Source: Actinacidiphila paucisporea
GTDB lineage: Bacteria > Actinomycetota > Actinomycetes > Streptomycetales > Streptomycetaceae
Assembly: GCF_900142575.1 (NCBI RefSeq)
Contig: NZ_FRBI01000002.1
Coordinates: 372,001 to 436,000, forward strand
Length of the DNA: 64,000 nucleotides
Direction of reading: 5' to 3'
A program made the position numbers and the translations under genes. The first letter of the stretch is position 1; every line of letters starts with the position of its first letter. This document shows, in pieces, positions 2,560-56,665 of this stretch. The notes beneath the pieces are model-generated. The model did not search any database. It had not been told where the DNA came from and saw only the letters and a list, made by a program, of their open reading frames with translations.

Positions 2560-2565
2560 TAACCT
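2560..2565 (+). promoter_or_regulatory. Likely -10 element of the leuS leader transcript
   Basis: TAACCT lies exactly 6 nt before the ATG of the leucine-rich leader peptide. Transcription would then start at or next to that ATG, giving a leaderless leader peptide. I see no clear -35. The placement is inferred from spacing. Confidence 0.45.
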
Positions 2566-2571
2566 GACCGC

Positions 2572-2610
2572 ATGCGAGCCATGAGCCTCCTGCTTAGCGA
2601 GCCGCGCTGA
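2572..2610 (+). CDS. Leucine-codon leader peptide of leuS (attenuator)
   Basis: This 12-residue frame, MRAMSLLLSEPR, has three consecutive leucine codons (CTC CTG CTT, 2587-2595), one of them the rare CTT. It lies 125 nt upstream of leuS and just before an intrinsic terminator. A stalled ribosome at the Leu run would cover the left side of the stem at 2602-2631, whose left arm contains the leader stop codon. This is the layout of a classical ribosome-mediated attenuator sensing charged tRNA-Leu. Comparative work on Actinobacteria has described such attenuators upstream of leuS in some Streptomyces. Confidence 0.8.
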   Translation: MRAMSLLLSEPR

Positions 2611-2651
2611 CAACGGACCACGTCGGTGCGGCACCCCTCCTGCGTGAGGGG
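2602..2651 (+). promoter_or_regulatory. leuS attenuator stems
   Basis: A 10-bp stem with two G-U pairs forms between 2602-2611 and 2622-2631 (loop 2612-2621). It overlaps the leader-peptide stop. A 6-bp terminator stem follows at 2634-2639/2646-2651. A third option, GGTG 2625-2628 with CACC 2632-2635, would compete with both. Which pairing acts as the antiterminator was read by eye and not computed. Confidence 0.55.
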
Positions 2652-2659
2652 CTTTTTTG
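2634..2659 (+). terminator. Intrinsic terminator of the leuS attenuator
   Basis: CCCCTC (2634-2639) pairs with GAGGGG (2646-2651), followed by C and six T residues at 2653-2658. A U-tract is rare in this genome. Here it sits before, not after, a gene, which argues for attenuation upstream of leuS. Confidence 0.85.
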
Positions 2660-2734
2660 TTTCCACCGCAGGCAGGACCACAGGCAGAGACGGGCCGCAG
2701 CAGCCGTCATGACATCGATGGAGTACCGAGGACG

Positions 2735-5611
<2,877 letters not shown>

Positions 5612-5620
<9 letters not shown>

Positions 5621-54767: not shown

Positions 54768-56665
<1,898 letters not shown>

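Follow-up and report, generated by a model that had tools for sequence, protein, structure and literature searches.

A probable ribosome-mediated leucine attenuator before leuS in Actinacidiphila paucisporea and its relatives

Enterobacterial trp and leu attenuators combine control codons, a pause hairpin and a terminator, and their leaders have a ribosome binding site. In actinobacteria, classical attenuators before leuS were predicted in 2005 by Seliverstov and others for Streptomyces avermitilis and S. coelicolor (PMC1262725), in agreement with the initial annotation of the present locus, which referred to predictions of this type for some Streptomyces. In S. lividans TK24, the leader peptide LeuL2 (MRAVRLLLSEPR) is listed before leuS as a leaderless transcript with a hairpin and a uridine stretch downstream, and the leuA, ilv and trp leaders of this strain are likewise called leaderless (PMC8079986). 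For the ilvBNC operon of Corynebacterium glutamicum, a transcription start one nucleotide from the leader start codon is reported and CUU and GUA are named as conserved control codons (PMC11857589). That the leu attenuator employs rare Leu codons has long been known (PMC1183508); leuS is not mentioned in the excerpted text of Korolev 2016 (PMC4833913).

Layout of the element before leuS

The analysed stretch, referred to as the window, comprises 64,000 nt of A. paucisporea DNA (contig NZ_FRBI01000002.1, positions 372,001 to 436,000 of the forward strand). The following features, given in window coordinates, were assigned to the element and its surroundings.

2438 to 2735: gap of 296 bases from the end of the upstream ORF (2438) to the start of leuS (2735), holding TAACCT, the leader frame, hairpin A and the terminator
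2560..2565, + strand: TAACCT, a -10-like hexamer (TAnnnT) whose position suits transcription starting at the leader ATG or beside it (sequence; spacing in relatives)
2572..2610, + strand: leader peptide frame MRAMSLLLSEPR, 12 codons, ATG at 2572 and stop TGA at 2608-2610 (sequence)
2587..2595, + strand: Leu codons CTC CTG CTT (sequence)
2593..2595, + strand: CTT, first base 8 nt before hairpin A, proposed control codon (conservation in 166 leaders)
2601..2611, + strand: 5′ arm of hairpin A (region 1), overlapping the leader stop (fold, covariation, arm swap)
2622..2632, + strand: 3′ arm of hairpin A (region 2; fold, covariation, arm swap)
2626..2645, + strand: candidate antiterminator, 2626-2631 with 2639-2645 (U2641 bulged), putatively joining region 2 and the terminator loop
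2634..2651, + strand: terminator stem-loop CCCCTC CTGCGT GAGGGG, stem 2634-2639 with 2646-2651 (terminator scan, fold)
2653..2658, + strand: T6 tract of the terminator (sequence, terminator scan)
2728..2732, + strand: GAGGA, Shine-Dalgarno-like, before the leuS ATG (sequence)
2735..5620, + strand: leuS, leucine--tRNA ligase (TIGR00396, E 1.2e-266)

From the leader ATG to the end of the T tract, the window leader measures 87 nt. The frame of 12 codons with three consecutive Leu codons, the terminator with its six-T tract ahead of leuS, and the hexamer TAACCT 6 nt (2566-2571) ahead of the leader ATG had all been described in the initial annotation and were recovered at these positions. The stem over the leader stop was likewise present, its length being counted as 11 bp (2601-2611 with 2622-2632) and not as the 10 bp given there. 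A GC-rich inverted repeat at 2460-2489 (GGCCCCCGCACC...GGTGCGGGGGCC) follows the upstream ORF and may be the terminator of that ORF; leuS may thus well be transcribed from a promoter of its own.

Distribution in relatives and start of the leader

Using the LeuS protein, 110 loci were fetched (80 named and 30 of the same genus, including the window's own). A leader with at least two consecutive Leu codons was found in 108 of these, the window's included, and a terminator with a T tract followed in 107 of the 108. The leader of locus L103 is degenerate (MRAVSLPLSEPR), its Leu run being broken (CTT CCG CTG), and in locus L079 no leader was found.

A covariance model, R1, was built from 23 leaders; having been made with CTT leaders, its matches may favour CTT by a few bits. 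R1 matched 182 of 393 genomes of the class, belonging to 65 of 123 genera, under strict filters that may lose weak matches. Sixty matches in 59 genomes were fetched, hand-chosen for spread, and not at random, among the matches listed (E about 4e-9 or better); leuS follows 58 of these, and in 56 the leader contains a Leu run. Some of the weaker matches may be other leaders; the second R1 match in genome G048 is a leuA leader. In a sample of the phylum, R1 matched 16 of 197 genomes, three of them outside the class: G514 carries the leader MAAALLLSPPR (CTG CTT CTT) before leuS, G439 has a branched-chain leader before an apparent acetolactate synthase (by eye), and leuS was not found at the match in G490. 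Within this phylum draw, the five genomes sampled from family f6 gave no R1 match. Thirty further loci were chosen by LeuS protein alone; 11 had a leader and a terminator, 17 had neither and 2 had frames without a terminator. All 11 lie in R1-matched genomes, and 8 of them were already among the leaders counted below.

In total, 166 leaders were compared, made up of the 108, L103, the 56 and locus L228. Left out were L079 (no leader), L211 (contig end), and L231 and L238 (another leader, no leuS); L262 and L263 were fetched and not used in counts. The leader finders required at least two consecutive Leu codons and rewarded long runs and TAnnnT. Rows are related and the same species can recur across collections (L074 and L220 are alike), so counts are not independent. 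A first genome count of CTCCTCCTC was uninformative. The leucine-codon attenuator before leuS put forward in the initial annotation is borne out by these comparisons: Leu run and terminator are both conserved, so that missing conservation, named there as a refutation, is excluded. What was predicted in 2005 as a switch in two Streptomyces species is now found in many families of the class.

Several other leaders and leuS copies were encountered. In L231 and L238 (family f17), R1 matched the leader MPSQVLIIVRRAG, which has a hairpin and a terminator; a citramalate synthase gene (TIGR00977) follows it in L231, and the region downstream in L238 is without leuS. From its sequence, this leader is possibly a branched-chain attenuator of citramalate synthase. 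Genome G234 holds two types of leuS (L223 and L224), 39% and 70% identical to the window LeuS over the pieces compared, each with its own Leu leader. Genome G030 has a second leuS copy (L261), which shows 86% identity over residues 13-533; about 350 nt read upstream of it contain no leader of this kind, and the first copy (L086) has one.

The distance from the end of TAnnnT to the leader start was 6 nt in 140, 7 nt in 25 and 9 nt in 1 of the 166 leaders, the window's included; the agreement of 165 leaders is not fully independent, since the finders gave a bonus for TAnnnT. As background, of the 3297 ATG or GTG triplets counted over the two strands of the window, 4 had the motif ending exactly 6 nt ahead of them. 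A Shine-Dalgarno-like motif precedes 4 of the 166 leaders, compared with 11% at window ATG/GTG triplets and unlike the enterobacterial trp and leu leaders with their ribosome binding site. A scan of 2300-2800 by a two-hexamer rule gave no sigma-70-type promoter, and no clear -35 was seen. Hexamer spacing and scarcity of Shine-Dalgarno motifs fit a transcript that begins with the leader start codon or one or two bases from it. The earlier claim of a promoter-like hexamer in position for a leaderless leader peptide is thus retained, the spacing being kept in relatives; the novelty claimed for the leaderless start was not upheld, because LeuL2 before leuS of S. lividans was already in print as leaderless (PMC8079986).

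The codon preceding hairpin A

Codons were numbered by the distance of their first base from hairpin A. Among the 166 leaders, the -8 codon was CTT in 158, CTC in 7 and CTG in 1 (L103). The -11 codon was CTG in 106, CTC in 40, CTT in 18 and another codon in 2, and the -14 codon was CTT in 73, CTC in 40, CTG in 33, TTG in 7 and a non-Leu codon in 13. The hairpin anchor used for the -8 count preferred Leu at this place, and a Leu-blind anchor was run as a check. With the latter, the last Leu codon lay 8 nt from hairpin A in 143 of 160 leaders, 7 nt in 9, 6 nt in 5, and 5, 4 and 2 nt once each; six leaders (L240, L254, L255, L256, L257 and L259) were lost from this set when the terminator finder failed. 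In locus L228, the sole Leu codon left is the CTT at -8.

Over the 56 diverse loci, the last Leu codon of the run was CTT in 47 and CTC in 9. Away from the window's own family, the rule as seen in these sequences is one of CUY, with CUU commonest, and not of strict CUU, because the 11 loci found by LeuS alone end in CTT (7) or CTC (4). CTT made up 0.1-4% of the Leu codons in the genes counted: 17 of 1477 in 36 window ORFs, 9 of 7709 in leuS frames and 57 of 1528 in diverse leuS pieces. Relatives were also searched for leuA and ilvB leaders, 30 loci each, and the last Leu codon was CTT in all 27 leuA leaders and all 26 ilvB leaders found. In the 26 ilvB leaders (from L141-L170), GTA was kept alongside CTT. 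The window itself has a leader with CTG CTT CTC CTT before leuA (54768-54815); its 15-residue peptide is the same as LeuL1 of S. lividans (PMC8079986), and a TAAGGT ends 9 nt upstream.

Part of the conservation of the -8 codon may have a cause in the RNA itself. Over 160 sequences, the second and third bases of the codon were mostly unpaired (0.78 and 0.77), the first base being often paired (unpaired 0.38). Pairing of CUU with a fixed partner was judged unlikely, the third base being paired in 22 of the 160, its partner lying mostly at one of two sites (10 and 5 loci). Two further candidates were set aside by eye. A +1 frameshift at CUU-A is at odds with the variety of codons that follow (AGC 83, ACC 10, AGT 5, ATC 3, GGC 3, and GCG, AGG, ACG and GAC 1 each in 108 leaders) and with a shifted frame whose end point differs between leaders. 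The Leu codons could pair with the 3′ arm of the terminator in some leaders and not in those of the CUUCUGCUU type.

From the place and identity of this codon, we infer that a ribosome stalled at the CUY codon at -8 is the signal. A tRNA-Leu with anticodon GAG reads both CUU and CUC. A tentative, if plausible, extension is that actinobacterial leuS, leuA and ilvB attenuators would sense the charging of tRNA-Leu(GAG) by means of one rare codon, CUU or occasionally CUC; in leuS, on a leaderless mRNA with the 8-nt distance to the hairpin fixed, this one codon and not the Leu run would be the sensor. No description of such a codon rule for leuS leaders was found in searches of the open-licence PMC literature. 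If true, the proposal identifies the tRNA by which these bacteria gauge their leucine status and describes a compact leaderless attenuator in which single-codon stalling can be tested with few base changes.

Folding of the leader, the proposed switch and known systems

In the minimum-energy fold, hairpin A and the terminator stand side by side. For 2596-2664, the stability of the fold gave z -2.87 and was equalled by 2 of 200 shuffles; over the whole of 2572-2664, z was only -1.54 and 16 of 200 shuffles equalled it. A terminator scan of 2300-2800 returned one site, against a shuffle mean of 0.0 (sd 0.2). In 23 sequences, 3 of the 11 pairs of hairpin A had double changes and 95.3% of cells were paired; over both helices, the 8 double-change cells were reached by 1 of 500 shuffles and 3 such pairs by 54 of 500. 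Swapping the arms of hairpin A between families cost about 4 kcal/mol, and none of 200 permutations was as stable (53 sequences). Hairpin A is supported by covariation in these alignments.

The candidate helix between region 2 and the terminator loop (the region 2:3 helix) behaved differently from hairpin A. Its two strands can pair in 94.2% of cells, and no double changes were seen in the covariation test. Coevolution was absent from the arm-swap test, matched arms giving -6.93 and swapped arms -6.79 kcal/mol, with 684 of 2000 permutations as low (53 sequences). This test used 53 of 160 sequences, and 155 were used for folding with ribosome positions. A second candidate antiterminator, GGUG 2625-2628 with CACC 2632-2635, was rejected by eye as weak and shortened in relatives with GUCAGUGCGGC.

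When the full-length leader was folded with a ribosome at different positions, terminator probability was 0.94-0.99 at every position tested (155 sequences). The two competing folds of the leader proposed at the outset were therefore not demonstrated, and since the terminator prevails at equilibrium whatever the state, a switch would have to be kinetic. Nascent RNA ending before the terminator 3′ arm was folded in the same way. The region 2:3 index was 0.02 without a ribosome; with the -8 codon in the A site it was 0.59, 0.87 and 0.84 for footprints of A+10, A+12 and A+14, respectively, and with the -11 codon in the A site 0.00, 0.41 and 0.84. In this model, the -8 codon would be the first Leu codon at which a stall frees region 2 only with the A+10 footprint, a stall at -11 doing so partly at A+12 and fully at A+14. 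The helix also formed in the nascent calculation with the ribosome further downstream. As such ribosomes also free region 2, the off state would require them to be released rapidly on reaching the stop codon. Within the model, the kinetic switch and the quick release would both stand against a simple textbook scheme.

Sequence and comparison show the leader, a CUY codon of fixed position and identity, hairpin A, the terminator and the hexamer spacing, and a mechanism may be proposed on these. In short, transcription would begin at the leader ATG or beside it, and the 5′ end would be loaded with a ribosome. With ample leucyl-tRNA, the 12 codons would be read, the ribosome would leave, hairpin A would form and the terminator would stop RNA polymerase. 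With leucyl-tRNA short, the ribosome would stall with the last Leu codon, CUU, in its A site and its leading edge would cover the base of hairpin A, freeing region 2. The freed region 2 would then pair with the nascent terminator loop, so that the terminator is delayed and leuS is transcribed. As judged from the sequence, leader gene and stop signal very probably let the cell make more LeuRS when leucine-charged tRNA is short, and we consider it likely that the element is a ribosome-mediated leucine attenuator of leuS.

Leader translation might also control leuS without a classical antiterminator, the ribosome acting via hairpin A (as a pause or tandem-terminator device) or via mRNA stability. 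Covariation in hairpin A but not in the region 2:3 helix, and the dominance of the terminator at equilibrium in all states, agree with this, as does the position of the leader stop, which varies between families while the distance from the Leu codons to the hairpin hardly does. It is nevertheless unlikely, since the terminator loop is nearly constant in close relatives and region 2 pairs with this loop at 0.59-0.87 in nascent RNA when the -8 codon occupies the A site, compared with 0.02 without a ribosome. Less probable again is a constitutive short leader and terminator that set only a basal level of leuS and give no leucine response. L103 would suit such a device, the -8 CTT and the middle Leu being lost and hairpin and terminator intact (by eye), and may be a natural variant that has lost leucine sensing; however, CUY at one register in 165 of the 166 leaders is unexpected of a mere basal device, and leuA and ilvB leaders share the same codon choice. 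A T-box or other riboswitch binding tRNA or a metabolite is very improbable: T-boxes are in print before actinobacterial ileS (PMC1262725), but no Rfam family reached its gathering score in the window and the leader is short and codes for a Leu run.

With ribosome-mediated attenuation as the preferred reading, the locus can be set beside described systems. The leuS attenuators of S. avermitilis and S. coelicolor share with it a leader frame, an antiterminator and a terminator predicted before leuS, and a leaderless start is not discussed in the text on leuS (PMC1262725). Closest is LeuL2 of S. lividans, described in 2021 before the same gene, with 12 codons, the end LLLSEPR, a leaderless start, and a hairpin and uridines; two residues differ from the window peptide (MRAVR against MRAMS; PMC8079986). 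The window element is plainly a relative of LeuL2. From leader stop to terminator, the window has 23 nt, compared with 43-44 nt in three Streptomyces loci (L001, L003 and L010). The C. glutamicum ilvBNC attenuator concerns another operon and another amino-acid set, and its three-hairpin model includes an antiterminator tested by mutation, whereas the candidate before leuS comes from sequence (PMC11857589). The ilvB1 leader of Mycobacterium tuberculosis is, like the leuS leader, an actinobacterial uORF that has control codons for branched-chain amino acids and is followed by an intrinsic terminator; it belongs to another operon, and the excerpted text neither describes it as leaderless nor mentions leuS (PMC13236596). 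Compared with these systems, the probable leuS attenuator described here belongs to a known kind and is ordinary, though well conserved; its codon-position rule can easily be tested.
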